Of a DNA stretch of 64,000 bases, positions 1 to 25,400 are shown piece after piece (the first letter of the stretch is position 1; every line of letters begins with the position of its first letter). A program made the position numbers and the translations under genes. This stretch comes from Saccoglossus kowalevskii (taxonomy: Eukaryota; Hemichordata; Enteropneusta; Harrimaniidae), in assembly GCF_000003605.2 (NCBI RefSeq), contig NW_003140811.1, positions 1,106,471 through 1,170,470 on the forward strand. The letters run 5' to 3'. Under the pieces are notes generated by a model. That model did not search any database. It worked only from the letters and a program-made list of their open reading frames with translations, and was not told where the DNA came from.

Positions 1-2675
1 GACCCTCTTTTCAATCGCTTACTGCTATTTATATAAACAGTAAATAACATGGGACTACAAGCTGAAACAATAACACCATCCACGTAATAAATCAAAGTAA
101 ACGTAACCCAGTTCACAAGCTTTCACATTAACCCCCAAAATATTGTATCAGAAATGAAAGATGTAAAATATTCAGTCCACTGTAGGTTGTTTAACCTAAA
201 TTTGGTTTTTCCTTTATGACGCATTTAGAAAATTAACGACTTTCGCTGTATTTTTTTATCACACAATATAATGGTGGTAATAAATCAGCACAGCTGGCGA
301 TATATTTATCAGAATGTGCCTGCTTTGCAATAATATTCACATATTAATAACATTTAACATAAAAATAATTTATGTCCCATAGTACAATAATAAATGTTTG
401 TGAACAGTTGGGACACATATAAAGATTAAAAAAGAAGTTGTTTAAATATGTTGAGTCAGTGCTAAGAAAAACAGAGATGAAAATATATTTTTAAACAAGA
501 ATTTCTTAAATAATGTTAAGTACTATGCGCAGTGTACATGCAAGTTACGGTAATCGTAAGATATTCGATATATTTAATGTGGAGTCATTGTATCACTTTC
601 TTTTGAAATCATAGAAGAACTGCTATACCATACCACCCGAGTTGTACTTAGTTCACATCCGATGCAATATTTGACAATAATAATTGTCCTACAGAAAAAT
701 ATGTCGCGAAAACCTAAGCTTTCAGTTTGTTCCGACAGTACGACTTTAAGGTAGAAATGCAGTTTACCTGACAGGTATTTTAATTAGTTAATTATGAAAC
801 CAAAATGACCTTCCTTGTCCACAAAACTATATATTTTCGGAAAGCTTATTGTATGAATTTTAAAATTTTTTTAGTATTTTTTTAATGGACACTGTAGTTA
901 GAAGTATGCACAAAAATGTGTTTTTTTGGTCAAAAGTGATTAAAAAGAATAGCTTCTAAACTATGCTTCTGTTTCCTGTCAAAATTGGTTTATGAGTTCA
1001 TCTGTTTACTATGAAGAAAGTGCCGTCTTGAAAACTGTCTACCAGTTGTCAATTGTGCAGGGCAGCAGCTCAAATTTCACTACTTCAAGTTTATGCATAA
1101 ATTAACACCCAGGCTAGTTGTCTGTGCGATTGGTGTGACACTGTTCAACCAAAAACAATGCTCCGACGGCGTTTTGAAGATAAACACATTGTCAATCATT
1201 TGTGAAAATTTCAAAATAAAAGGTCAAAGCGTCTAGGAGCTATTTTTTTTAATGTTCTGGAATGTGCACTAGAAAGAAGCTGAGATAATTGCTAATTTGC
1301 ATAACAATTCACTCAGTTTGCTAATGCTCATAATTAAAATGGCTGTAACAGATTCAAATTTAAATGTATTATTGTTTTGTTAAAAGTTAAATATAGTGCA
1401 TGATATGGAGATACCGTCATTTCTTTTTTTTCACCATGTTTCTTGTTTATTATTTATGTACAGCCTTGCTAAGCATTCAAAAGAGATAATGTTTGCACCT
1501 GTTATTTACATTTTAAAATCGTTTTTTGAGTATGTTCCACTATTTACAATTCTACAAAATTTTAACAGTCTATAGCCAAGACTTTTTTGATAATAAAAAG
1601 CAAAACAAAAAATTCACTCCCAAGTGCCCACGAACCTGCATCTCTATCTTAATTGGAAAGGAACACTGCAATATTTGGTATTCAACGGCAAAGTTGGAGA
1701 GGTGGTCTCCGAACAGAATAAAGTACTTTGGCTTTACGATAGTAAATAAAGTCCCACAAAAAACTTGGATGTCGTGATTGTCAAGTCAAAACACTGAGAT
1801 CGATAGAGTTTCATGATAAATAATTTACATACTTAGGTAATCAATGTCTTATTACTGTACTGTACTGCTGTGCATTAAACGAATTCGACAACTACTAATA
1901 ACCCACCAATCAACCAATATTGTTGACCACGACTAGATGTATTGAATATGTGTACCTTCCTGCATAATATGTTTTACGCGCGTGATTTAAAAATAGTTCA
2001 TTAAGAAATAGTGTAAGCTCAAATGTGTGTCCATTGCATCACCTATAAGTGCGTCTGCAACTCCTGTGCAGTCGAGACAGTCAATGCCATTTATAGAATT
2101 ACCATCGACAGTTTACATAGATGAGTATATTTATGCAATAGAAGACATTTTGAATTGGTTTTGTGAGTCAAATAATCCGGCTTTTTCACTGTTAAATGAT
2201 ATGTAATTCCCCCATTATGGCACACGGCAACAGTCACGCAACATACATCTTCCAAGACAATGTGTAAGTGCCCAATACAATATAGGCTGAAAGCAGCAAT
2301 AACACAGTTAATGTTGCAATTGAGTGAAAACAGCGATCATTCAGATCTTTTCGCTTTTAAGGCAAACACACGATTCGACTTATAGGAAACTGTGTATGAA
2401 TTCAAGGTCCATGTGTTCTATTTATGACAAACGTTGAATGCATTCCTAGCCGTTTTTGACCACGTGTTCAATCTGTACACACTTCCTGTTGACAGTACTG
2501 TCCATGAAATTTAATCTTGACCAAGTTTCTGATACTGATATCATAGCTTATACATACTTCATACTAAACACGATGTAGCATTGACTGGAGCCCTACCAGG
2601 AACATGTTGTTTCTCCGCGTTTCTTTATTTATAACTCCAGGTTGAATATAAATCACTATTCTTGTTTTGTTTTAG
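1..2675. other. Upstream intron of the TRPC gene
   Basis: The first visible TRPC exon starts mid-codon, so this stretch should be intronic. It is AT-rich. I searched it by eye for the missing N-terminal ankyrin exon and found nothing convincing. Short open frames here have no recognisable domain. Confidence 0.5.
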
Positions 2676-2803
2676 ATTTAGTAGAGCTTCTATTAGAGAA
2701 AGGAGTTCGTATTGGCGATGCCCTTTTACGAGCCACGGACGTGCAATTTGTTGCCGCCATAGAACCGATATGTGACCATTTAAATAGACAAGGAAAGCTA
2801 AAG
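2676..2803 (+). CDS. TRPC: TRPC exon A: end of ankyrin region
   Basis: The acceptor follows a T-rich tract ending TTTTAG, and the donor is AAG|GTGCGT. The exon starts with two bases that complete a codon begun upstream, so at least one earlier exon exists outside the window. It encodes 42 residues beginning LVELLLEKGVRIGDALLRAT, a typical TRPC ankyrin helix pair. It ends in phase 0. Confidence 0.9.
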
Positions 2804-5800
2804 GTGCGTAATATTTTATTTTACACTGCCATTCTGAAGGTACGGTGACAATACGTTTTTGGGGGTATATTATAAAGGTTTCTGACTAAGTAATGTCAAG
2901 TTACAATCATGTAGTCTTACAAAGGGCACCGAACAAAGGCACAGTTTTATTAGTATTAATAATATATCGCTTCCCATTTGCTGTTCGACAGGATGGGTTG
3001 AACTGTCGCGACTCTAAAGGTGATCTCCATCCAGATATCACACCCGTGGTGTTAGCCGCGCATCATAATAATTACGATATACTGAAAACGTTGTTGGAAT
3101 ATGGCGCCTATCTTCAGGATCCAGATATGAGTAATACTCACGATTTTCAAACTACGGAGTTTACTCTGGAGTACTCGATCGGTAGGATTAATATATACAG
3201 GGCACTGGCAAGTGAAGCTTATATAGCGCTGACCAGTGAAGATCCAATTAATACGGCATTTGAGCTCAGTTGGAAACTCCAACAACTAAGTGAACGTGAT
3301 TATGAGTTTCATTTTCAGTATATTGAACTGGCCGACCAGTGCGAGCAACTGGCTGCCGACTTGTTGGGTCAGGTACGTGACTCTAGAGAACAAAGTATTG
3401 TTCTTTCGCACGATCCCAAGGAATGGGTGACGAGTCGAGACTTCCACGAACCCAATAAAGTGAAGCGAGCCTTACGATTGAACCAGAAAAAGGTAACTGC
3501 AGTCTTTGTCTTCTCATCATTCAAGCTATGTTCTATGTCAAGTACAAGCAATGTACAATATGTTATAAAGTATGGAGACTATACATTGTCACAAGTTAGC
3601 CACTATCCACTTTGATTTAATAAACGGTATTATTTCTAACCGCTATTTTCAACACGTATATGTGACCATAAATATATTTTCTGGAACCTTAGATAGCATA
3701 AAATGATTAATTCTGCTCGACGGATTTGCTACGAATAAAAACACTTGTTACGCCTCCGCGTAACGCAATATGGCAGCACGTCACGGCCTCACCTTGACGT
3801 TTGTGGCGTTTCACGAGTGCGGCGGTGTGCCATGCAGCGGTATATATTCACGATACCAGCGAATGAATCTTCAGCATGGATGCACACCATTACGAGGACG
3901 AGGAAATGGTGTTCTGTTGTTATTACATACGTTCCCATATTTTACGAAAATCGCCAGGAAATTCTCAACCAATTCATCCAAAATTGTCTTATGAGTGCGC
4001 GCAAAAGCAGTGATCTATTTTAAACTTTAACTATTATTGATTAATCAGGCATTTTATTCTATTCATATGCAAATGTTTACAGACGCGCACGTTGCAGGTT
4101 GTCGTAGTGTTGACGACAATTTTCTTCATGCATAATTAATTAATAACATTACCAATTGCTTGGTGACGTCATTTGATATACAGCTAATTACAGGATTCTG
4201 TTTATTTCATAATTCTTTGTGTTTCTGTGTAAATAACAAGAGCTGTTTGCAGTGAAGAAGCGTGATGTGTCATGCCTACTGTAAAATGTGTTTTTTTAGC
4301 TGGTATATTATTGTAGCAAATACATTTAACCTGTAATTTCGCTAATTCAAGATGTCGCTAATTCAAAATTAAGTTTATTGACACAATTAGCTTGTTGGCA
4401 CTTAAGATTTTGTTTAATGAATGCATTAATCAAATTCGTTGAAATTATATGAGCCATTCCAACGTCTTTAACAATATGCGGTGGATCCATTAATAAAGTT
4501 GTATTAATTTCATACCTTAAATTCATAATTGCAATACTTGACTGAATTTAAGCTTGAGGGACCAAGGCACGACTAATTCCATTGTTTGACGTGCATTGAA
4601 ATGAACACGGTTCAGTAAATTTCTTTAATTACTTTCACTAACGGGATGACCACGATATATGCTCGCATACGATCAGTATAGACAATGCAGTTTGCCGATC
4701 AATATGATTACCCTTTGGGATGTATACGCTAAATGAGGTATCTTTGTAACAAGTTCATTCAAAGGTATGGAAACGGTACATCAAGCCAAAAGTGCATATT
4801 CCGTGAGTTGTAATGACATTGGAATTTTATTGCCTAGTATACCTTACGAAAAACGGACTTTCAAAACAAATATCGACTTGAAAGAAATTGCAATTACGCA
4901 TAGGACAAAGCCCTCATATGAGGAATCTCTTCTGTTCTGAGATATAAAGTCACACCAAAAATATAATGTCGAGGCCGCAGTTCGAGGCGTTTTTTCGTGG
5001 GGAGTCTAATAGTTGAACTGACTATTAAAACTTGCAGGAATGTATAAACAATTAATACTGTTTCCGTTTATGACTCGTTTTCTCAAATATCTTTGTTCTC
5101 ATAATTTTGTTTAAGACTTTCAGTTCTAGGACTTGTATACGTCTTTGTCCTCATAAAATGTATAACGTGACATATGGATAGCAGCACACTAGATGCTAGA
5201 TGCTAAAGACATTCTTTTTATTACAGTTTGTGGCTCATCCTCACTGCCAGCAACAGCTAATCGAATTGTGGTACCGAGGTCTTCCATCGTGGCGTAAGCA
5301 GCACGTGATGCAAGCCTACATGATTTCATTCGGCTTGGGTCTAGCCTTCCCCTTCCTCTGCCTCTGCCATATCTTTGCGCCTGGCAGCAAACCCGCATTG
5401 TTGCTTAAAACCCCGTATGTACGTTTCATCTGCAACGTTGCGTCGTCTCTAGCGTTCCTGATTCTATTATCAATACAAGCCGTCGACTTTCATACAGTGA
5501 TGCAACCACACGCCAATCTAAACAAGTCCGAAACTGAAGAGATGGATCAGCTAAGAGGACAACACGTTCTATTCACAGAGGCTCTTGTTATGTTCTTTGT
5601 TTTCTGTAAGTATTTTTTATAGTAACAGACTGATAACCAGGGATGCAGAAATTCTGTTTGTGCATCTCGTGCCACCTCTTCCAGTGTATCACTGTTTCTG
5701 TTAATTGCTAAACCCACGAAAAAACAAAGATAATATCCAGATTACAAAATTAGTAAAATTATCGAAACTTTCCGTAACTAGTGTTTGTAACACCCTTTTA

Positions 5801-8800
5801 TTATTGGTAATAGTTCATTGATAAGTTTATAGATTCGTAAAAACAGAATTGGTTTCAATAAGATCATGATATGTCAGCAATGTACGGATATTACTGTATT
5901 GTATCATTTTAGTATCCTTCTTTAAATATTTAACAAGGATGACGTAATAAGCAAGAGTGTGCTCACTTCTATCAAAGTAGGTTTGTTTTGCTATTTAGTT
6001 AGTAGTCACAGCTGTAGTGATATACGATGCACACGGATAAAGTGACATTTTGCGTGCTGCATTTGCGACATGGTGATTTGCAAATGTCAACATTTCATTG
6101 AATGCGGTTTTTTTGTGTTCTTAGGTCACACGTCATCTGAAATCCAAGACATTATGAAAACAGGAACTAGAGGTATAAAGTATAATTTTACTTGGAAACT
6201 TCTGGATTACATGATGTTATCATTATACTGGGCATGGATTGCATTGAGAATCATTGCGACATTGGAGGTAAGGTATTTCAATAACGTTTCACATGATTAC
6301 AGGTGGTGTTGTCAGCAAGTCTATGATTACAGTTAACACACGAATTAATCAACGTGGCAGTCGTAAATAATTTAACATACTGAACATGCATATTTATCAA
6401 TTACAATCCATGCATATATTATGCTAATATTTGGGGATGACGTCACTTTGAACCGTGAACTATACATAACAAAACTGTATGATGATAGAATAGAACGCTT
6501 ATAGAAAATTATTCACCAATAATTCTATGTTTCATTAGACTGAATGCCGTTGACGAGATATAAAAACTAGAAAACCAGAAAAGAAATCAAAGCAACTGTT
6601 TAATTATAATAATCATAATGCCACACGCTGCCATAATTGAAGCCTACGTTCTCATTGGTCGATCGGGACTAAGTGAAGACGATAATTATGTAGTGATTGA
6701 GAACAATGAAAGAACATACGGACAAGATTGTGTGTGTCACACAGAATTATCCGTTGTTTTCCACACATTTGTACGCAGATTCTTTCATTCCGTAATGTTC
6801 CGGTAAAAACAAATGTTGATTTATTGTTTGTGTTTAAAATCAGAAACTGAAATTATTTAGGTTATAATAATATCAAATATTCATCAGATTTATTATTACC
6901 ACATTCATAAAATCTTCTCCCGCTGGAATATGTGGATTTACCAGCATGCGTTGACAAAATTAAAAAGTTAGCGTAAATTATTGACTTAACCACTACCGGG
7001 ATCATAATTCAAAACTACAAGGCCGACGATTGAACGTACGTTTCCAGCCAGGTGAGAGTCATTGGAATGTACATTTAACAAAATATATGACGTAATTTGG
7101 TAATGGCGGTGAAATCGTGCTGATGCACTTGAATAACTTAACTAAGTGCTGCAAAATAGAAGCGATCATTTGCTAAACATACCAACAAATATGTAAATTT
7201 AGCTACTTAAAAAATACAGCTAATATAGTCGAAATAAAACAATAATATTGTACCCAAATAAAGTATCAAGGTATATGAACAGTTGTGGATGAAATTAAAC
7301 TGCCACACTACACAAACTGCTGATTTTGATTGGATGGAACGCATCCAACGTATGATTTGGGTGACTATTTGGTTATAGCTTACTTACATATTGAAAATTT
7401 ATAGCAAGTACTAGTGTTTCTTGATATGATAAATGCTGTATTTACAGACGATTCTTATTTTCTTTTTACTTCTCAATACTAATTGTTGTTGATTTTTTTC
7501 CTTTTTTTCTCTCTCATGTTTGTATTGAGAAATTCCACCCGCAGCTGATTGGAATGCAGGATACGGTGAATGGTAATATCACCAAGACGGAATTGGTCTA
7601 TGATGACAGCCAGAGTGACTATGTGGACGATTTCTATTACAGTGATTACTACGGTAATAACGCTAACAATGTGCCGTCGGAACAAGACAGTAGAATGGTG
7701 GAACTGCTAAAGCGGCAGAGTGCAATGGAATTAACGCTGGAAAGAATATACGCTAAACTGAATGAAGCAGAATTAAACCCGGATATAAACAAACGAGATC
7801 GACGGGCTGTGCGCCGGCCAAAGCGACCATCCAGTGGAGGGGGGTCAGCTGGGGCAACAGACGCACCAGCGGAAGACTCCGCGATTGCCAGGCTCGACTC
7901 GTTGCATCCTATCTTAGTGGCCGACGGTATATTCGCAGTAGCCAAAGTGCTCAGCTTTTTACGCGTCATACGAATGACTGTTGTGCATCTGAATGTGGGT
8001 CCCATGCAGATTTCCCTGGGCAGGATGACTTATGATATTGTGCGTTTTCTTGCAATATTTACCCTGGTTTGGTTCGCGTTCTCTGTTGGATTGAATCAGC
8101 TTTACTTCCACTACACAAGGGAGCACGCTGTGACTTGTGGTATGGAAGCAGCTGGTCGTAAGTGCAACCCACCTTATGGCAGGTAAGGCACATTTTCATG
8201 AAGCCTTTTGATTCGTATATTTATGCTACTTGTAGATTTATATACAGCATATGTATATATATACCGACAAAACAAGACCAAACTTAATATAGTTGTTTTG
8301 TTTTGGTTAGAAAGTTACCTGTATTAAGTACTTCATTTTAAATCACTATGCCGTTGTAGCATACTATTACATCAGAAACACAGTTAGACGACACTTGATT
8401 TGTTCGGGTATACCTTTTTACAAAGCATTCAAAATGTTAGAACCTCCAAAGTATTTAAATCGGTAATTACCATTCAACGAACTATTTCTATTTAAACAAA
8501 AATGACGGGTGAATAAATGAATTAATTGAAGGAATTTGGGGAGGGGGTATACAGAATGGTCAAAAGGATTATCCGATTACCAGTTTTGTTTCGAGAAGAT
8601 GATAATTCAAATCGTACTTATAAAACTGTATGGCGCCATGGTTTAGCGACTTAATATTAATGACGTAAAGATCAATAACCTGTACTCAAGTCCCACATGT
8701 GGTTGAGGTATTTTCAACACGAAGAGAATATGATACATAGATCATCCCTTATATAAGAAATCTCATGCTTTGCCATGGTCAGTAGTGAAAAAGTAGAAAA

Positions 8801-11800
8801 CATTCTACGGCAATGTCATTTGTTTCCTTTTCTGAATAATAAAATACAACTACACGTATCATCTTTTTTATTGTCTAGTTAGTTGAACATTCCAATGCGT
8901 GTGCTGCTGCAATAATGTAGCATCTTCTCCTATGCGCTTTACAAAATCAAAAATCAACAGTTTCAGTTCGTTTTCAGATTATTTCAGAAATCGTATCATA
9001 TCACTGCATATTAGGTTCTCCGGATTCTATTTAAAATTGCCACGTGTCGCCCAATAATGACCTCTTCCATTTACGACACAATTGTTTGATCCCGGTGTAA
9101 GTGTAATGAATGATTTAATGAATGAATTAATTAATTAAAAGACACAATCCACGCATTTTGATTAACTTGGCACCTTTACCAAACGCATGTATTCGCTTTA
9201 TTTGCTTTGCTAGTGTTTCTAATGCTTTAGCAACACTATTTTGGACGCTGTTTGGGTTGTCTGATCTATCGAGCCTAAAGATTCTTCACATGGATCATTG
9301 GTTCACGGAAATGGTTGGACAGATGCTATATGCTGCATACCACGTGCTCGCTATTGTTGTGCTGCTCAATATACTTATTGCAATGATGAGCAACACCTAC
9401 ACCAAGATCGAGGTGAGTCGCACCACATCATAATCTTGCGGAGACTTTGGCAAGTGCACAATGGGGTGTTGGTCACGGTCGACGTTGGATTTACTTCCGA
9501 TCAGCAATAATATGGGGTTCTTAGACTGATATTTTAGTATTCCACCTTGAGCGTTGTCGTGCCGAAAATATTAATGCTTAATTGTCAACATACACGTTAC
9601 CTTTGAGCAATGAACAAAATATAATGTGTAACAACTTAGTTTTCGGCGTACTGTTGTAAATATATCACCCGGAAAATTCATAAACATGTGTAAAATGAAG
9701 CGTAAAGGCTCTCGATCGACTGGTTTTGAAATTACCTCTTTTAGTTTTTGTATCGCAGGTGCGCGGTTTGTAATGTAACAACTACACACTATAATAATAT
9801 TATTATCTATCGTTATTTAGATATATCAATATCAGTTACGTAGCATACATTGTTGTCGGTGACGTATACGTTGCTATAGTTACATGTCTGGGCTGTCTGG
9901 AAGACAAAAAAATATCGCCACCCTAATGGTGGTAAATATTCGTAGTTTAGGTATTGAAATGTACAAGATAGATAATTTGTATTACAACTGTTGTGTACAT
10001 TGACGTTGATGGGTCCAATGATTGTGTTGGGGGAGTGGTGTCATGTGCAATAGTTATGCAATTTAGCGCGACGAAACCATTAACCTTATATGTGCCGATA
10101 TTCACCGGTGCATCAGAACCGTTAGCTTCTGTCAGTCAGTGAAATGACTCTGTATTGTTCACGTGTTTGCACTGAGCATGCGTACGTCAGTGCATAGTTT
10201 TTTGTCTGATCCGATATAGTAGTTCTCTAGTGTCTACTGGGGGAATTCCCCCAGATAAAACTGAACAATTAATTAAGAAATGTGCATGTTAATTTTATAG
10301 GAAGACGCTGACATGCAGTGGAAGTACGCCAGGTCGCGATTATGGTTGAGTTACTACGAGAAACGAACAGCACTAGCGCCACCATTCAATGTGTTTCCAA
10401 CCTGGGACAGCTTCCGAAAGATCATAAGAACATTTAAAAGAAAGATTTACGGCAATTCTATGGAAAGAAAAAAGGTATGTTATTTTTGTCAATCTGTTCT
10501 TTTTTCGGAATTGTTTTTGGATATATTGATTTACAATAAATACATTGATTAACATATTGTTCAACTTTAGTCTTCAATGTTACAGAAAGTGGTGATATAA
10601 TGTTTTAATAAAACCTTTATTTACCATGTGTTCAGAAAGCTTAGATAGAGAGAAACACAAAATAAATATACTAAATAGTTTGTTTAGTTAAGTTTCACGT
10701 GACATTGTCAAAATGATTAAATCCGCGCGTTCGATAAAACACTGTAATATTTCTTGCTGAAATTTATGGCTTATATACTGAGAGTTACTAAGTGCATGTA
10801 AATGTGTTCTGGCAGTTTTAAGAACATATTTTAAAAGAGTTGTTCAAGCTCAGTACTTCACTACTACTTAACACATTTGATGGGCTGTTACCCTATGAAA
10901 TATTGACATTATCCTTGCCATGTGAATAATCGTTATTCTCACATATCCACTTCGTGCCTCCTGGCACATTAAAGCCATAACGCTTGTCTTTCAGTTCTGT
11001 CTGTCTTGTGCACTTCATCTGACCTCATTCCAAATGTTCCATCCACCCAACTTTCTTTCCTTTTCCGCTGTTCACCTCCATGTTGCCCAATATATTCAAC
11101 TTGTACTCTCTCATGACTTTTGCTACATGTGCTCTTTTTCATATTGCGTACATTGTTCTTACATTCAAGTTCAATCCCAATATTAAGAACTTGTTTTGGC
11201 TTTGCAAGTGACTCCATCAGTCGATGGACTTCCTTGCGGCTTTCACCCAAAAACGTAATCCTGCTCTGGTTATCAGAGAATCTGATGTTATCATCCTCTG
11301 TTTTAAAGCCTGATTTAGTTCAACTAATCGGAATTAGTATGAAACGTATGGCACAAGCGTAGTAGAGGTGACTCTGACTTGTGAGATTCAGTATTCAGTA
11401 GCGGCTACCTAGCTCGAATGATTTGCTGTGTTATTACAACAAAATACCAGTGCTACTTGGAGAACAAAGTAATAATATTTTAAAAAGAATAATGTCACAC
11501 AAAACCGCGGAAATTGTGTGTTAGTGTTCATGTAATCAGGGAGTAAACCATCGTCAGACATTGCTGTGACAATATATTAACAGACTGTTAACAGATAGGC
11601 AATAGTTCCGGCGCATCTGATAAATACACTGTAAAAATAGAAACATGTCCAGCAGGATGCATCAGCGACCCTGTAAAGTTTCATTCATTCGTCGCTCAGT
11701 TTTTATTACAGGACCGGTATTCACTTGGGAGTATGCTATAAAGAGAAGCAGCGTGGAGTCAGCGAAACGCGGTGATATTTGCCTTGATATAGACCAGCAC

Positions 11801-12490
11801 AAATATGAAACGTTGCCTCGTCAGTTTGTTAACGTATCTTGTATGACGTTGTTATAATCTGTTTGCATTGCAGAAAAAGAGAAGTATTATTGAAAGAAAG
11901 CACAAAGAATACAGGGTCTGTGATGTGTTTGTTTGTTTTCTGTATTTATCTGCAAATTGAGCTCTGTAAATATCGACCATCTTTCAATCGTATCAAAAAC
12001 TGTGTGATACATACTCATTTATTCTTAACTACGTTTGTTTGCGTCACTTTTACAGGAGGTCGTACAGCAACTGACGCAGCGTTACCTTTTTCAACGGAAG
12101 CGAGTGGGTGAAGATGACGATAATAAAGTTGGTCCGGAGCCATGGATAGCAGATCTCAAACGTGACGTTTCAGGATTCAAATACGATTTACTGCAAAGTC
12201 TCACCGATATGGACAGTAGGATGAAAGATATCCAAGAACAGATAGACGAGGAGAAAAAAGAACCCACACCCAGTCCTGGCACGGAGATTGAACACGCGCT
12301 GAGAAACTGTATGAATGACCCACCGCCTAAACCCAAACCCCCAAAACCTAAGCGAAATAATATGCCGTCGACGAGTCCCCTCACGCAAGGTACCTTCACG
12401 AAGAGGGGGATGATTCAAAGATCGTTACGATTCGCCGACGGATTTTACGAGGGGGAGGTCGACTACACGTCAGATGAAGAGACTGTGTAG
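2676..12490 (+). CDS. TRPC: TRPC-family cation channel gene, 5'-partial, nine exons
   Basis: Joining 2676-2803, 2992-3492, 5227-5605, 6125-6267, 7545-8182, 9214-9412, 10301-10474, 11874-11915 and 12056-12490 gives one open frame of 878 residues plus a TAG stop, with matching phases at all eight introns. TRPC hallmarks appear in order: ankyrin-end VELLLEKGV and DITPVVLAAH, the INIYRALAS...SSEDP-type block, FVAHPHCQQQL before S1, GPMQISLGRM after S4, GLNQLYFHY in S5, the LFWTLFGL pore, the S6 motif LLNILIAMM, TRP box WKYARSRLW, and an EYR/EVVQQLTQRY segment matching the calmodulin/IP3-receptor binding region. Family members are plasma-membrane, Ca2+-permeable non-selective tetramers gated downstream of phospholipase C. 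The pore-loop cysteine pair and GLNQLY favour a TRPC1/4/5 or TRP-gamma type over TRPC3/6/7. The N-terminus (probably 70-100 residues) lies upstream of the window. The odd feature is a large S3-S4 loop insertion. The family call is very secure; the subtype is not. Confidence 0.96.
2992..3492 (+). CDS. TRPC: TRPC exon B: last ankyrin repeat and pre-S1 (TRP_2) domain
   Basis: Encodes 167 residues (43-209 of the visible protein) from DGLNCRD to RLNQKK, in phase 0 at both ends. It holds DITPVVLAAHHNNYDILKTL, the conserved INIYRALASEAYIALTSEDP block, and the ELADQCEQLAADLLGQVRDS linker-helix segment typical of TRPC. Vertebrate TRPCs keep a Cys/His zinc-binding cluster between the ankyrin repeats and this block. 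Here the matching stretch (YLQDPDMSNTHDFQTTEF) has no cysteines, as seen directly. Confidence 0.95.
5227..5605 (+). CDS. TRPC: TRPC exon C: pre-S1 elbow, S1, start of S2
   Basis: The acceptor is TTACAG and the donor TCT|GTAAGT; the exon ends in phase 1. It covers visible residues 210-335. It starts with FVAHPHCQQQL (the invariant TRPC motif before the membrane domain), followed by a hydrophobic elbow at about 238-260, S1 at about 274-293, and an S1-S2 extracellular loop with an N-K-S glycosylation sequon at residue 308. The start of S2 (TEALVMFFVF) runs into the next exon. Confidence 0.95.
6125..6267 (+). CDS. TRPC: TRPC exon D: end of S2 and S3
   Basis: A strong poly-T tract precedes the TTAG acceptor, and the donor is GAG|GTAAGG. 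The first two bases complete Cys336. It encodes HTSSEIQDIMKTG (cytosolic S2-S3 linker, matching the WxEIKxMWxxG-type region of relatives) and FTWKLLDYMMLSLYWAWIAL (S3). It ends in phase 0 right at the outer end of S3, just before the unusual S3-S4 insertion. Confidence 0.93.
7545..8182 (+). CDS. TRPC: TRPC exon E: expanded S3-S4 loop, S4, S5, turret
   Basis: Encodes visible residues 384-595, with a CCGCAG acceptor, an AG|GTAAGG donor and a phase-2 end. Residues about 388-501 form an insertion with no counterpart in TRPCs I know. It holds an N-I-T sequon (394), a Tyr/Asp-rich stretch (402-419), a predicted helix (431-460), a basic cluster with RDRR (467-470) and RPKR (474-477), and a GGGSAG linker. 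The family sequence then resumes: LHPILVADGIFAVAKVLSFLR (S4), GPMQISLGRM (S4-S5 linker), S5 ending GLNQLYFHY, and a C581/C590 pair like the TRPC4/5 turret disulfide. The exon is intact and in frame on both sides. Confidence 0.95.
9214..9412 (+). CDS. TRPC: TRPC exon F: pore helix, filter and S6
   Basis: The acceptor is TGCTAG and the donor GAG|GTGAGT. The exon encodes LATLFWTLFGLSDL (pore helix and filter, the LFW-FGL signature) and S6 at about residues 630-655 with VVLLNILIAMMSNTY. The first base completes Ser596. It ends in phase 0 at the end of S6. Confidence 0.96.
10237..10254. promoter_or_regulatory. 18-bp perfect palindrome containing a kappaB-type site
   Basis: CTGGGGGAATTCCCCCAG is its own reverse complement. 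It contains GGGAATTCCC, which fits the Rel/NF-kappaB consensus GGGRNWYYCC. It sits 46 bp before the acceptor of TRPC exon G. Any function is inference. Confidence 0.3.
10301..10474 (+). CDS. TRPC: TRPC exon G: TRP helix
   Basis: Encodes 58 residues in phase 0/0, starting EDADMQWKYARSRLWLSYYE. This is the post-S6 acidic patch plus the TRP box. APPFNVFPTWDSF, the conserved reentrant segment, follows. A basic run (RTFKRKIYGNSMERKK) leads to the microexon. Confidence 0.96.
10960..11190 (-). mobile_element. Non-LTR retrotransposon endonuclease fragment, antisense in TRPC intron 7
   Basis: Read on the minus strand, a degraded frame gives LNVRTMYAI, a stop, then KRAHVAKVMREYKLNILG. This matches the start of the APE-type endonuclease of RTE-like LINEs (family pattern WNVRTM..GK...V..EM.RY.L.ILG). 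Downstream the match fades through further stops. No 3' end, tail or target-site duplication was seen. It is an old fragment, not functional, within the intron at 10475-11873. Confidence 0.55.
11874..11915 (+). CDS. TRPC: TRPC exon H: 42-nt microexon
   Basis: Encodes KKRSIIERKHKEYR in phase 0/0. The acceptor GCATTGCAG is strong; the donor AGG|GTCTGT is weak. It is supported because KEYR joined to EVVQQLTQRY in the next exon rebuilds the conserved YQ-x-V/I-M-x-x-L-x-KRY segment of TRPCs. A second in-frame donor lies 9 nt downstream (GAT|GTGTTT) and would add three residues (VCD). Confidence 0.8.
12056..12490 (+). CDS. TRPC: TRPC exon I: CIRB-like segment, coiled coil, proline-rich tail, stop
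   Basis: Encodes residues 735-878 and ends in TAG. EVVQQLTQRYLFQRKR continues the calmodulin/IP3-receptor binding region. WIADLKRDVSGFKYDLLQSL and the following heptad-like stretch to about 802 match the C-terminal coiled coil that packs the tetramer. The tail is lineage-specific: a Pro/Lys run PPPKPKPPKPKR (823-834), a Ser/Thr-rich basic stretch, then an acidic end DYTSDEETV. The last three residues fit a class III-type PDZ ligand (acidic at -2, Val at 0), not the TTRL ending of vertebrate TRPC4/5. Confidence 0.94.
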   Translation, partial: EVVQQLTQRYLFQRKRVGEDDDNKVGPEPWIADLKRDVSGFKYDLLQSLTDMDSRMKDIQEQIDEEKKEPTPSPGTEIEHALRNCMNDPPPKPKPPKPKRNNMPSTSPLTQGTFTKRGMIQRSLRFADGFYEGEVDYTSDEETV

Positions 12491-13684: not shown

Positions 13685-13878
13685 TGTTAACAAATATATC
13701 GATAACAGTAATAATTAGTAATTACACACAAGGTCTAGCACGATTGGCTCCCGATAAACAGCGCCTATTCGTCCACCCAATCAAGGGCCTACGTTTCCTT
13801 ATTTGGTGAATTTGAAGATATATTTTTCCTGGCCTCAGAATAATTATAACGCTATACAAGATGCTGTTCTTCTTGTTC

Positions 13879-13959
<81 letters not shown>
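13879..13959. repeat. (TTA)n microsatellite
   Basis: About 27 uninterrupted copies of a TTA triplet. It creates an artificial poly-Tyr frame that should not be read as protein. Confidence 0.97.
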
Positions 13960-15201
13960 GACATATATACCAGTTGTGTTACTTTCCAGTTTGCTATAAT
14001 TATATTACTCCGTTTACAAATGTACACATATTTTATTGTTAGTGTATGTTTGCGACAGTTATATAATTATGTATAATTATACGCTGCAATTGACTGGGGA
14101 ATTGGCCAATCATAACACATAATGTGAATGTATTAAAAAGGTACGAAAATTACGTTTCAATTGGGATTATAAATATACACTCAAATAAAGTATATGTTCG
14201 TATGATAACGTCACATGAACATCAATACGGATGGGCAAATAAAGACAAAGAAATAAAAAAAAGTGTCATTCGACGCAAGTGATACCTAGAACCATATTCT
14301 AGAACACGTTTTATGATTTGTGTTTTTTTCTTTCACGATAAGCGCATGTATCCTAAGTTTCCTATCTTTCTTCTAAGAGATCTGTATTGATATAAGGTAA
14401 TGCGTTTTTTTAGCAACAGCGCCGCCTAGAGTAGAAAATGAAACAAGTAGTAGTTTATCCGAATTAACGTTATGCCATATTTTGTTTTCGTGTCTTGCCC
14501 GCTGTGCAACAATTTTTTACTAAACATAATTTCATTTACACTACAATATTACATTACACTATCACGGTAAAGTAAAATAATATTAGAGTGCTCAAAATTG
14601 TTGAAGTGACAATCAACAATCTGGTACATGTACGTACATCGCACCGCTAAATTTAAGATTCATCTCGGAATTATTCCCCGGCGCTGTTGCAGAATGAGTC
14701 ATTTAGATTTTGAAATAAATGAATTCATTTAATAAAATAATATTTCATTGAAAATATTTTTTTGTTATCACATACACGCATATACACCCTACCATTCTTA
14801 CATGTGGTAACCCACTACATGATCAACTTCGGCATTGTAAGCAATTCAAATTACCTTATAAAACAATCTTAAAAACCTTATAAACTTCGCCATTTACGAA
14901 GCCAGTCTGCCCTATACTGGAATAATCTTCAAACTATTCAATATGTACAAACTGCAAACACATAACCTTCCCTTCTGAACCAATACAACTTTCATTTGGA
15001 ATAAAGAACGTACGACTCTCATACATCGGACGACCGACTTTTTCTCACCGGTATACATATATATATATCAATACGAACTCATAGACCCTCTCTCGTCCAT
15101 GGACTGACCACCGTGGTATATACGAATGCACACAGAACCACCGTTCTATCTTACTAACCAAACGTACCAAACTATTATTCCAAGCAGCACGCATATTTAA
15201 A

Positions 15202-20144: not shown

Positions 20145-21193
20145 ACATATACATGATCTTCTCTGTGAGACAACTCCAGGAAAAGTGCAGGGATAAGCGA
20201 TAACCTCTATACTTGGCCTTCGTTGACCTTACCAAGGCCTTCGACCTGGTAAGCCGCAGTGGCTTATTCAGTCTTCTCCAGCGCCTACCAAAGCTCCTAA
20301 GCCTAATCAAGTCTTTCCATACAGACATGAAAGGCACTGTCAGCTTCGACGAGGATTCATCTGAACCATTTGACATTCGTAGCGATGTTAAGCAAGGATG
20401 CGTGCTCGACCCCACACTCTTCGGCATCTTCTTCGCTCTCCTTCTGTACTACACTTTCGATTCTTCATCTGACGGCGTTTACATCCACACCAGGCACGAC
20501 GACACGACGGCAAACTCTTCAACTTGGCTCGGCTCCGGGCCAAGTCCAAGATCACACGTGTTCTTCTCAGAGAAATGGTGTTTGCTGATGGTGCTGTTCT
20601 TGCGAGTCTCACCCATGATGGTCTTCAACGACTTATGGACCGCTTCTCTAAAGCCTGCAAAGGGTTCGCTCTCACAATCAGCATTAAGAAGACGGAGGTA
20701 ATGGCACAGGACCCTCCAATACCACCCTCTATCACAATCGATGACTTGCAGTTGGCTGTGGTCGACAACTTCAGATACTTGGGCTCAAACATCTCTCAGA
20801 CCCTGTCTCTTGATGTGGAGATAAATGTTCGCATTGGAAAAGCCGCAGGAGTGATGTCCAAGCTAACAAAGAGAGTCTGGGAGAACAAAAACCTGACTCT
20901 TAGCACGAAGTTGAAAATCTACCATGCACTCTTCTATACAGTAGTGAAACATGGGCAACTTACACAAGACAGGAGGCTGAACTGAACGCCTACCACATGA
21001 GGTGCCTACGTCGACTATTAAGGATCACTTGGGAGGATAACATCAATCTTTGCCATGCAGAGTCAAAGACGACTGCGCAGATTTCTTCTTCGGGGACTGT
21101 GACAAGGACTATCACTCAAGGATTGTACTCTACAGCCACCGCAGACGCTGCCCAAGTTCAACCACACCATGGCGCAACCCATCGTCTTCCTAA
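20145..21193 (+). pseudogene. Non-LTR retrotransposon reverse transcriptase relic
   Basis: A broken LINE ORF2. The first frame reads MIFSVRQLQEKCRDKR, a stop at 20201, then AFVDLTKAFD (catalytic motif A), SFHTDMKGTV and VKQGCV. A frameshift near 20500-20524 moves to RLRAKSK...MVFADG, where the active-site FADD has become FADG (20581-20592). Then come FRYLGSNISQ, IGKAAGVMSKLTKRVW and, after another shift near 20950-20985, MRCLRRLLRITWEDNI. About 20 nt later a C-terminal Cys/His segment (C-x7-C...H...H-x3-C, 21074-21151) appears and ends at TAA 21191, so the intervening thumb/C-terminal part is deleted. It resembles RTE-like families common in invertebrates; the clade is not settled. It cannot be active. 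Confidence 0.88.
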
Positions 21194-21972
21194 ACGGACG
21201 GAGGCCGACGACGACGAATTTTCAAGATTTCACTCAGTGTTATTGCATAATTGTTTAGAGCATCAGAAGAATGGACTTAATTCTGTAATCACCTTCGCTG
21301 TTTCTTACATACTGACACAGGAGTATTAGTTTATTGGAATATTGTAACTTGTGTACAATTGAGCTATATCTGCACAGAGTGACTCTCTACTTACAATAGA
21401 TGACAGAGATTGTTAAACGATGGTTAAACATACAACTGCCCTGTCTATTGAGCACTTTAAACAATCCATTCCGATGTTTGTAGAATTAGTCTTTAGTGAG
21501 GATCACTTAGTTTTTTTTCGTAACTTCTCCAAGTCTTGTTAATATGGGCACCGAAGCAAGGTGAACTATGGATAGTTGTATTTGTTAGATATGGGCAATA
21601 TACTACGTTGAAATTGTTTTATAAAACGTCTTCTATTAAAAAGAATCAAGGAAAACTGTCGTCATAGAGCTAAAAACCATACAACTCGGTTGTCTTGCTG
21701 GATTATTCAAATTCAAGTCTTGTTCCCCTTACGTAATTATTAATGTATACAATCCATTAAAATAAACAAAGTATTATGCTGATAAACAGGCATTATAAAC
21801 TTTTGCATAGACATGCTCGGTGAGAAACACAAAATATATTCCAACAACGTTCGTCGCACTACCCACCAACCAATATATCCGAAGCATCAACTGAACCATA
21901 TCAGCAACCATGAACAACACAATTACAATATAACATTATTTTTTCAGTTAATCTTTTACTGAGCAGCGCATT
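21194..21972. other. Noncoding stretch between LINE relic and minisatellite
   Basis: Possibly includes the 3' UTR of the LINE relic. I see no gene, tail or duplication. Confidence 0.4.
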
Positions 21973-22414
21973 CATGTATCCTAGGTCGTANNNNNNNNNN
22001 NNNNNNNNNNNNNNNNNNNNNNNNNNNNNNNNNNNNNNNNNNNNNNNNNNNNNNNNNNNNNNNNNNNNNNNNNNNNNNNNNNNNNNNNNNNNNNNNNNNN
22101 NNNNNNNNNNNNNNNNNNNNNNNNNNNNNNNNNNNNNNNNNNNNNNNNNNNNNNNNNNNNNNNNNNNNNNNNNNNNNNNNNNNNNNNNNNNNNNNNNNNN
22201 NNNNNNNNNNNNNNNNNNNNNNNNNNNNNNNNNNNNNNNNNNNNNNNNNNNNNNNNNNNNNNNNNNNTTGTGTATACATGTATCCTAGGTCGTATTGTGT
22301 ATACATGTATCCTAGGTCGTATTGTGTATACATGTATCCTAGGTCGTATTGTGTATACATGTATCCTAGGTCGTATTGTGTATACATGTATCCTAGGTCG
22401 TATTGTGTATACAT
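21973..22414. repeat. 27-bp minisatellite array, interrupted by an assembly gap
   Basis: The unit begins TTGTGTATACATGTATCC and ends TAGGTCGTA. Five complete units lie at 22268-22402, followed by a 12-base partial; an 18-base partial unit lies before the gap. Sequenced copies are identical. The unit contains nested palindromes (TGTATACA, ATACATGTAT, CCTAGG). Because 27 is divisible by 3, the array stays open in several frames and produces false repeat proteins. Confidence 0.97.
21991..22267. other. Assembly gap (277 N) inside the minisatellite
   Basis: Runs of N. The gap starts exactly at a unit end and resumes exactly at a unit start, so its true length should be a multiple of 27 if no indels exist; 277 is not. 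Confidence 0.99.
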
Positions 22415-25400
22415 TCATAATATAACACATAAATTTAGCTACGTGTATGTGCTAGTACTAATAAATAGTCTCACTTTCTCACAACTCGGATAACGCAATT
22501 TTGTTTATTTTTTATGAAATGCGCGCGGAACAAAATTTGAAGAAATCTGTAAGATTCTGAAGTAACCGTTGAGAATGGCATGCGCATCACGTAATTTTAT
22601 GCATATGTTATTATTTTACTACAGTATTCGGCGTTATTAATTCTGCATCGTTACTTTTTGAGAGTCGTTTCCCCAATGTCTGATTACTTTGCGTGACGTG
22701 GGTCGGCTTGAAGGGTTACATTATTTTGTCTCTGCATAATAAATAAGCAATTCCGTGTGACGCCCGATGGCCTAGGGGGAGTCTCCTGGCCGCGGCGTGT
22801 AGCCAGGTTGTTTGTTGCCGTACGCGAGCAATTGGTTTGAGCAAGGAGAGTTTACTTTGATTTAAAGCGGGAGGGTCGTCACCTGCGCACGCGCGGGAAT
22901 CGAGTCCCAAGCGACGATAACAACACACGCTAAAAACGCAAAGGCTCATGGGTAGATGCTTGTTTGTAAACAATGACACGCTATGGCCACCTGACACATG
23001 CGCAGGTGACGCTTTCGTATAGTATTTACAATGCCGTGTATTCGCTGTCATTACTTATTATTCCGAACGTGGACGTGTGCCGTGGCACGGAGATGAGCGT
23101 ATCACCAAATAATCTATGAACTGTTGTTTTCGTACAGATAGCTAATAATAAATTTGATTAAACTGAGAGCTCTTGTAATCACTGTTTATCGAAAAGAAGT
23201 AAAAAAACACATCCACGACAGAATGTATAATTTGAATTGATGCTTATAATCACGGTGAACGGTGAATGACGTCATATCATTTCCATTTTGTTTTCGTAAG
23301 ACCAGAAAGCCGTTAGCTTATAGATTATCTATTCGACAGAGACAAATAACCTACGTTTTGCGGGAGTGATTGTTTATATAAAATGTCAGCATCGTCTCGA
23401 CGTTAATGAAAATATCAGTGATTCCAGCGTTACCAGTGGACATGGAAGAGTTACACATTTTCATTATTACAGAAACAACTTTGAATGTAATACCCCTTAG
23501 GGGAATTCAGCAATGGGGACGATCGACCTGCAACACTAAGGTACGGGGGAGGGGGTAATAGCTAAGTGCACTGCAACAGATTCATCTTGATGGAATCGCT
23601 AGTTCTCACATCAAAACACCGGGGTGTCCTAGATAGTTCGTGGCAGAACAAGTGCGTACTAGTACACAATAATCACTTCCCTGGTGTCAGCAAACTGATG
23701 CATTGGCCTGATATTCATTCGTGTGGCACGCGCCTGTGATTAAACGCCCAGTTTGCTCTACTTTGCATTTTATTGTCGTCTGTTATATCGCATGAACTGT
23801 GCTAAGTGGGTCGCATTCCTATATCTTGGATACTAAAGTACTTAAGCGAGCGCTGATTTGGGAGTATCTTACAAACTGTTGTGTCAAAGTAATAATTAAT
23901 TTATATTCAGAATTCGCACGCTGGTAACCCGAACACATTTAATCTGACGATTGAAGTGAATGTTTATTTTTTACTCAGACTGATGGGTAATGTATTTGGA
24001 TAATGATTGCTTGTTCATATTTAAGTGTCAATCAACCGTCGTCAGGGAAATACTCACACATCGCTCACTCGTTTAGCGAGGAAAAGTAGTCTTCTTTCTT
24101 TGCGATATGTTTATTCAAATGTCAATGTGTGTTAAACCTTTTAGTTGCAATGTTATAAAGATCGCTCAAAACTATATGTGTTAAAGTGTCATAAGAAATG
24201 AACAAAAGTGAACAACTCTGAAAAAATGAAAGACTAATTTGCTTTTCGCGTGAACCCTTTTACAAGTAGTAAACGCTTAAATGACTCGGAGACTCCGTTT
24301 TTCGTATTGTGTAAAACTCGGAAACCTCGCGTACCGATACGTTAAACAGCATGATTGCTTGGTTCTTCTAATAATTGCTAAAGAAGTTGGCGAAGTTCCT
24401 ACAGACGAAGCCAGAATGTAATTTGACATGTGCTGTCATAGGCGACATGGTTTGACATGCTTCTGACATACGGATTAGTATTGTGTCTTGTTCACCTGGA
24501 TCCGTTCTCAGTGCAATAACCCCGTACGTACACGGGCAGTGCGCCAATCATAACGACATCTCCTCGATCCGTAACATCGCAAGAGAAACAGGAAAAAGGG
24601 AGAGTAAAAGGTGATGTGCGTTTGCAAAGCTGTGATATTGGGACAGATTGGTCAGCGAAACACGTATTCAGTGGGATGAAATGGACACTGAAAAAACGAT
24701 GTTAAACAGTATAGACTTGTTTCAACTTTATAATATCCATAAAATTCATACAATTAGGTACTACCAACATCAAATACAGTAGTAAGTAAATAAATACCCC
24801 ACCGCTACAGTGTATGCAGTGATAGATACCGTTTCTCCCACCCCTATCGATGAAGTAGATTATTCCTGGCACTTGCTATTCCATTGGCAACGCGCACTAA
24901 TACATCCACTGTATAAATTATGAAGACAAAATATCGTATAAATATTTAAATACCTCTTCGTGTGTTTTTATGTTTATAGTTTATATGTTGTGCACGAATG
25001 CATTAGTGAGTTTGACAGTCCGTGACTGTCGTTTATAGATATATATAGAGGATATTTAATGAGTGACCGTGTAATATCGTACTAAATGACTTCAGTAATT
25101 TTAATATGTTTCTCACTAAAGGCTCGGAACATATGTCAATTACTACATGAGTTTAATAATACGATAGTACACCGTCACGAATGTTGATATCATAACATCA
25201 TTCCCAGCTGTTTCGCCGGGGTTTCTAATATTGGAATCAGTATTTGTGTACGGGCATCCTGCGTTCTATTTATTTGCATATAACAACGCCATTTCGTGAA
25301 CGTGCGTTGCTGCTAGTTTATCGGATGTAACAAATAAGTTAGGGTCCAAGTCAGTTTGAACCCCTTTGTTTTGTTCAGGTTTTTTCTTTCTTCTTATTCT

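Follow-up and report, generated by a model that had tools for sequence, protein, structure and literature searches.

A TRPC channel gene on the forward strand of a 64,000-nucleotide stretch of the Saccoglossus kowalevskii genome (contig NW_003140811.1; the whole stretch is called 'the window' below) opens one of its exons, exon E, with 120 codons that lie between segments S3 and S4 of the channel. The long S3-S4 loop is a feature of an expanded group of TRPC genes in this genome, and not of one odd gene, because each of the 11 readable members of the group carries one. The reading that we favour, with a probability of about one half, is that this group possesses a genuine extracellular S3-S4 module, which in one subclade, that of the gene in the window (the 'focal' gene), would be cut by a convertase between S3 and S4. 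An earlier note on this stretch, made from its letters alone, had described an unusual insertion in this one gene; its view of the insertion as real and coding stands, while its restriction to one gene was too narrow.

The predicted focal protein is a TRPC family channel. A TRP_2 domain (transient receptor ion channel II; PF08344, 63.9 bits against a Pfam cut-off of 27) precedes S1, an Ion_trans pore domain is recognized (PF00520, 53 bits against 25), and a TRP box follows S6 in exon G (WKYARSRLWLSYY...LAPPFN), where phmmer aligns it to that of TRPC4 (EWKFAR / LPPPFN type). Compared with solved structures, the spliced protein scores best against TRPC4 (353 bits), followed by TRPC5 (347), TRP-gamma (320), TRPC3 (302), TRPC6 (296) and TRPC1 (262); among the best 60 of 156 matches, the top 33 distinct PDB sequences are all TRPC or TRP-gamma (353-259 bits), and the next is NOMPC, at 80.

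The frame at 7425-8186 is open and carries all of the elements that the earlier note had quoted (N-I-T, the acidic tyrosine tract YDDSQSDYVDDFYYSDYY, a helical stretch, the basic cluster KRDRRAVRRPKR, a Gly/Ser linker and LHPILVADG, at the start of S4). In the phmmer alignment, residues 2-282 and 397-599 of the query pair with 196-462 and 470-670 of zebrafish TRPC4, leaving 114 focal residues to face 7, and human TRPC3 has about 40 residues between the end of S3 and DPQIISEG; the observation of a large in-frame insertion was borne out. An equally long open frame arose by chance in 7 of 5000 sequences with the dinucleotide make-up of the insert and in 2 of 5000 with that of an intron. The GC content of the insert (49.2%) is close to that of the remainder of exon E after it (47.7%), as against 32.5% in the preceding intron. 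No Pfam match to a known domain was found in the insert at E-values up to 0.1.

The phase of the acceptor chosen for exon E (cgcag/CTG at 7545) agrees with that of the phase-0 donor at 6267/6268. Two in-phase alternatives, at 7530 (pyrimidine tract 15/19, ending in GAG) and 7560, would each shift the start of the loop by 5 codons. The stretch might instead be a retained intron, part of an alternative exon or an artefact of the gene model, with a short loop in the mature channel; GT and AG dinucleotides do occur within it, and the tract of the 7545 acceptor is modest (10/19). This very improbable reading is rejected because of the open frame, the coding-like GC content, the open loops found at the corresponding position of 10 other genes, and the constraint in two close gene pairs, where the ratio of nonsynonymous to synonymous substitution rates (dN/dS) is below 1 and the frame is kept. 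Nor is there a better in-frame acceptor near S4: no AG inside the loop has a better tract than 7545 (that at 7643 ties), and the AG closest to S4 (7892, tract 9/19) breaks the frame, as does 7643. As judged from the sequence, the insertion is confirmed as real, in frame and coding rather than intronic; from TRPC topology, the loop would lie outside the cell.

At least 15 TRPC genes are present in the genome searched (a 572-Mb assembly in 4830 contigs). A search with exon B gave 20 matches in 14 genes, and one with exon E (21 matches, distant channels among them) added a further gene, C1053 (paralogs are given by our working handles); 20 plus 5 stretches were then aligned exon by exon, with tblastn of the loci. 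In a tree of 17 rows, a branch with support 100/99 places 14 genes opposite TRPC3, TRPC4 and the TRPC4-like gene C2917, the last of which pairs with TRPC4 (85/68). The tree is built from tblastn pieces and is unrooted (midpoint for drawing), with one TRPC3 row, which fills 35% of the columns, and one TRPC4 row; because it is unrooted, the 14 genes might still be sister to TRPC3. Within the 14, the focal gene, C814, C211 and C3897 form a subclade (92/96).

Loop counts cover 11 of the 15 genes. C2917 lies outside them, as do C3368 and C1298, in which a run of N occupies or precedes the expected exon E region, and C1752a, where a TAA interrupts the frame shortly ahead of S4 and the loop carries RLKR. 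In all 11 readable genes the long loop opens exon E at the same place, behind a phase-0 acceptor, and a phase-0 donor directly after S3 was seen in 10 of them (exon D of C3977 was not found). Acceptors were picked by eye, and C3977 has three close together. The loops measure 120 residues in the focal gene, 161 in C814, 182 in C1005a, 140 in C1005b, 140 in C211, 119 in C3897, 115 in C1752b, 75 in C3977, 134 in C934a, 126 in C934b and 66 in C1053.

Two of the loci outside the counts deserve separate mention. C1752a (L036, G000:C1752:137300-147299) is either a pseudogene of recent origin or misassembled, its near twin C1752b being open at the position of the stop. The span of C1298 (L047, G000:C1298:245000-252999), on the minus strand, contains a long tandem repeat with open frames of 752, 669 and 390 residues.

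Cleavage is suggested by the basic cluster, whose match to the furin consensus, kept in the three closest relatives, was missed by the earlier note. Five of the 11 loops contain the motif R-X-[KR]-R, a number reached in none of 2 million draws of shuffled loops. All four subclade genes carry it, with the predicted cut 33, 35, 34 and 31 residues before S4 and with A, A, S and S as the following residue; the per-loop chance of a site within the 31-35 spacing was 163, 78, 39 and 49 per 50,000 shuffles. By these matches, a predicted furin site is conserved in position within the focal subclade. Alternatively, the cluster may remain uncut and act as a binding surface for heparan sulfate, lipid headgroups or the acidic part of the loop, making the loop a ligand- or matrix-binding domain, in line with the proposal of the earlier note. 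That would agree with the number of basic residues in KRDRRAVRRPKR, which exceeds what a furin site requires, with their continuation past the site in C814 (AVTRIS) and C211 (SPRVKISR), and with the coupling of basic cluster and acidic tract in the focal loop. We consider it unlikely, given that the four subclade loops share the order of the motif, its distance to S4 and the small residues that follow, which goes beyond mere charge, and that the acidic tyrosine tract, a possible partner of such a patch, is not conserved.

The second recurrent element is a helix. A heptad pattern of hydrophobic residues is significant in 4 of the 11 loops (reached by 1 of 400 shuffles for the focal gene, 0 of 400 for C1005b, 0 of 400 for C211 and 2 of 400 for C3897) and not in the remaining seven (per 400 shuffles, C1005a 23, C3977 34, C934a 59, C814 108, C1053 200, C1752b 281 and C934b 305). 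A single-sequence AlphaFold2 model of exon E places a helix at its residues 46-77, with low confidence. The self-assembly role once suggested for the loop is plausible because only 1 of 400 shuffles reaches the heptad pattern of the focal helix. The accompanying idea of tyrosine sulfation was not supported: by a crude criterion (at least 3 D/E and no K/R within 5 residues), sulfation-like tyrosines number three in the focal loop, one in each of five loops and none in five, and sulfation as a feature of the family was rejected because tyrosines in acidic context are not conserved.

The loops change rapidly, and it is possible that they are mostly unstructured glycosylated spacers, tolerated outside the channel core without a specific function. 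Loop identity between the focal gene and three paralogs is 22-29% (C814 29%, C211 24%, C3897 22%) against 41-69% in S4-S5 (69, 53 and 41%, respectively); the loops range from 66 to 182 residues and carry 1-7 sequons (a single one in the focal loop and 2-7 in each of the 10 others), and the heptad pattern fails to reach significance in most of them. Such a spacer is nonetheless improbable, in view of the retention of the furin-type motif in all four subclade genes amid strong change and of dN/dS values below 1 in the two close pairs (0.38 and 0.59 in the loop, as compared with 0.13 and 0.15 in S4-S5), in whose loops gaps of 8 and 9 codons leave the frame intact. The alignment of the focal and C814 loops, which takes in RDRRAV/RVRRAV and GGGS, is better than chance (1 of 2000 shuffles). 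The focal loop aligns well with C934b (1 of 2000) and C1005b (12 of 2000), where the matches fall in acidic segments and may be due to composition; the alignment with C211 is marginal (80 of 2000), and no alignment beyond chance was obtained with C934a (203 of 2000), C1005a (270), C1752b (897), C1053 (1374) or C3977 (1970). The S3-S4 loop is best read as a fast-evolving and presumably extracellular module.

Several points weigh against a conserved, convertase-cut module. The subclade has moderate support in an unrooted tree made of tblastn pieces. Six loops lack R-X-[KR]-R altogether (C1005a, C1005b, C3977, C934a, C934b and C1053) and the match in C1752b sits near the start of its loop, at residue 24 of 115, so that the furin-type site is a feature of the subclade rather than of the group. 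Related genes enter the shuffles as if they were independent, and the spacing window of 31-35 was chosen from the data; kinship and this post hoc choice mean that the furin-site numbers speak for conservation within a fast-changing loop and not for four independent origins. The heptad pattern is lacking at significance in 7 of 11 loops, including that of C814 within the subclade, and its shuffle counts are uncorrected for eleven tests; the exon E model, computed without relatives and used for the helix alone, is poor (mean predicted local distance difference test score, pLDDT, 55.6). Constraint could be tested in two close pairs only, the second of which includes C1752a, with its in-frame stop and possible pseudogene status, and in the first pair dS differs by region (0.337 in the loop, 0.105 in S4-S5). 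Finally, taken over their length, the focal and C3897 loops align no better than chance (973 of 2000 shuffles).

If the favoured reading of a cleaved module is nevertheless followed through, the module would consist of a fast-changing segment with at least one sequon, a coiled-coil-like amphipathic helix, a furin-type site (in the focal subclade) and a flexible linker, roughly 30 residues long, into S4. The channel would fold into a tetramer, each loop of which would be cut after RDRR by a furin-like Golgi enzyme, yielding one chain with S1-S3 and the helix and another with S4-S6 and the pore, the two staying joined in the membrane. Such cleavage would release S4 from the helix on S3, and this helix could pack against those of adjacent or sister subunits, or engage an external partner, and thereby tune assembly and gating; we infer the actual cleavage, the pairing of helices and the effect on gating from the arrangement of these elements. 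A further and tentative proposal is that the mature subunit comprises two chains, split between S3 and S4, and that the heptad helix left on S3 forms an outer bundle, with its fast-evolving sequences deciding partners among some 14 sister subunits or an outside partner; this would amount to a protease-matured TRPC channel with a diversifying code for extracellular partners.

Features of the focal TRPC gene and of its S3-S4 loop (positions in the window)
Feature	Position	Strand	Basis
Exon A (LVELLLEKGVRIGDALLRATD...)	2676..2803	+	GT-AG borders; frame joins exon B
Exon B, start of TRPC-specific TRP_2 match	2992..3492	+	PF08344 match; own-genome matches in 14 genes
Exon C, region ahead of S1, then S1 up to the start of S2	5227..5605	+	phmmer alignment to TRPC4; frame
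Exon D, S2-S3, phase-0 donor directly after S3	6125..6267	+	Sequence; frame
Exon E, long S3-S4 loop, S4, S4-S5, S5	7545..8182	+	Frame; acceptor choice
S3-S4 loop, 120 codons (insertion)	7545..7904	+	Gap against TRPC4; paralog loops
N-glycosylation sequon NIT	7575..7583	+	Only sequon in focal loop
Acidic Tyr tract YDDSQSDYVDDFYYSDYY, with three sulfation-like Tyr	7599..7652	+	Crude criterion; not conserved
Amphipathic helix, heptad pattern	7680..7775 (best window 7686-7769)	+	AlphaFold2 helix; heptad test
Furin-type site RDRR/AV (predicted)	7794..7805	+	Position common to C814, C211, C3897
Second R-X-K-R match, RPKR/PS	7815..7826	+	Motif scan
Gly/Ser/Ala-rich linker to S4	7830..7904	+	Sequence; GGGS also in C814
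Exon F, pore and S6	9214..9412	+	Start fixed by exon E phase
Exon G, TRP box region (WKYARSRLWLSYYEKRTALAPPFN)	10301..10474	+	Frame; TRPC4 alignment
Small TRPC exon	11874..11915	+	GT-AG; phase 0
Last TRPC exon, C-terminal part and stop codon	12056..12490	+	Frame

The focal gene, the plus-strand TRPC gene of the window, spans at least 2676 to the stop at 12490; nine exons of it were read in a single frame with GT-AG borders, a frame that holds with exon F set at 9214-9412. For the N-terminal ankyrin repeats of TRPC channels, the protein gives a single sub-threshold match (Pfam Ank, 17.5 bits against a cut-off of 21.1), and queries made of exons A to H, with no N-terminal query used, found no further upstream exons in the 9.5 kb upstream and window positions 1-2700.

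Elsewhere in the window, overlapping frames at 20204-20985 match reverse transcriptase below threshold (22.3 and 19.6 bits; cut-off 29.6) and are probably the remains of a retroelement, a short tandem repeat at 21901-22493 (YDLGYMYTQ-like, minus strand) adjoins a run of N, and a TAT-type microsatellite at 13816-14076 is read as a poly-Tyr frame and is not a gene. Elsewhere in the genome, eight weak ion-channel matches on one contig (G000:C3976:134405-355537) hint at a second clustered channel family.

The size of the expansion can be set beside published counts, as given in excerpts of two surveys: four TRPC genes in scallop, three in fly and worm and six to eight in vertebrates (PMC8539334), and two TRPC clades in cephalopods, where the TRP channel sequences, all families taken together, number 11 to 14 per species (PMC13402157). 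The excerpted passages of these two surveys make no mention of long S3-S4 loops (PMC8539334, PMC13402157), and the open-access papers searched gave no report of a convertase site between S3 and S4 of a TRPC channel, an absence that is weak evidence with subscription journals mostly outside the search. With no fewer than 15 TRPC genes, of which 14 fall into a single group whose readable members all have a long loop, the genome suggests a receptor-like diversification of a signalling channel. If the convertase site between S3 and S4 is used, proteolysis would become a step in the maturation or gating of TRPC channels.

Among known systems, vertebrate TRPC4/5 and C2917 of this genome share the core of the focal protein (TRP_2, pore domain and TRP box), and TRPC4 provides its best solved-structure match, at 353 bits; zebrafish TRPC4 differs at the loop, in whose place it has about 7 residues. 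Vertebrate TRPC3/6/7 are likewise TRPC channels with an outward-facing domain built from S3 and the S3-S4 region, and the excerpted TRPC3 study describes a long S3 and S3-S4 linker within an extracellular domain, a possible sensor of external stimuli (PMC5967863). In human TRPC3, however, the stretch of about 40 residues contains no R-X-[KR]-R as shown, whereas the loops described here have 66-182 residues, with a furin-type site in one subclade. TRPML1 is a TRP channel that is reported to be cut in its S1-S2 lumenal (extracytosolic) loop; there, both the loop and the TRP family are different from those of the focal gene. For the epithelial sodium channel ENaC, excerpts of two reports state that cutting of extracellular parts can activate the channel (PMC9163703, PMC6197857). 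ENaC belongs to an unrelated fold and family, and in the focal channel a single cluster would, by the predicted cleavage, split the S1-S4 domain itself between S3 and S4.
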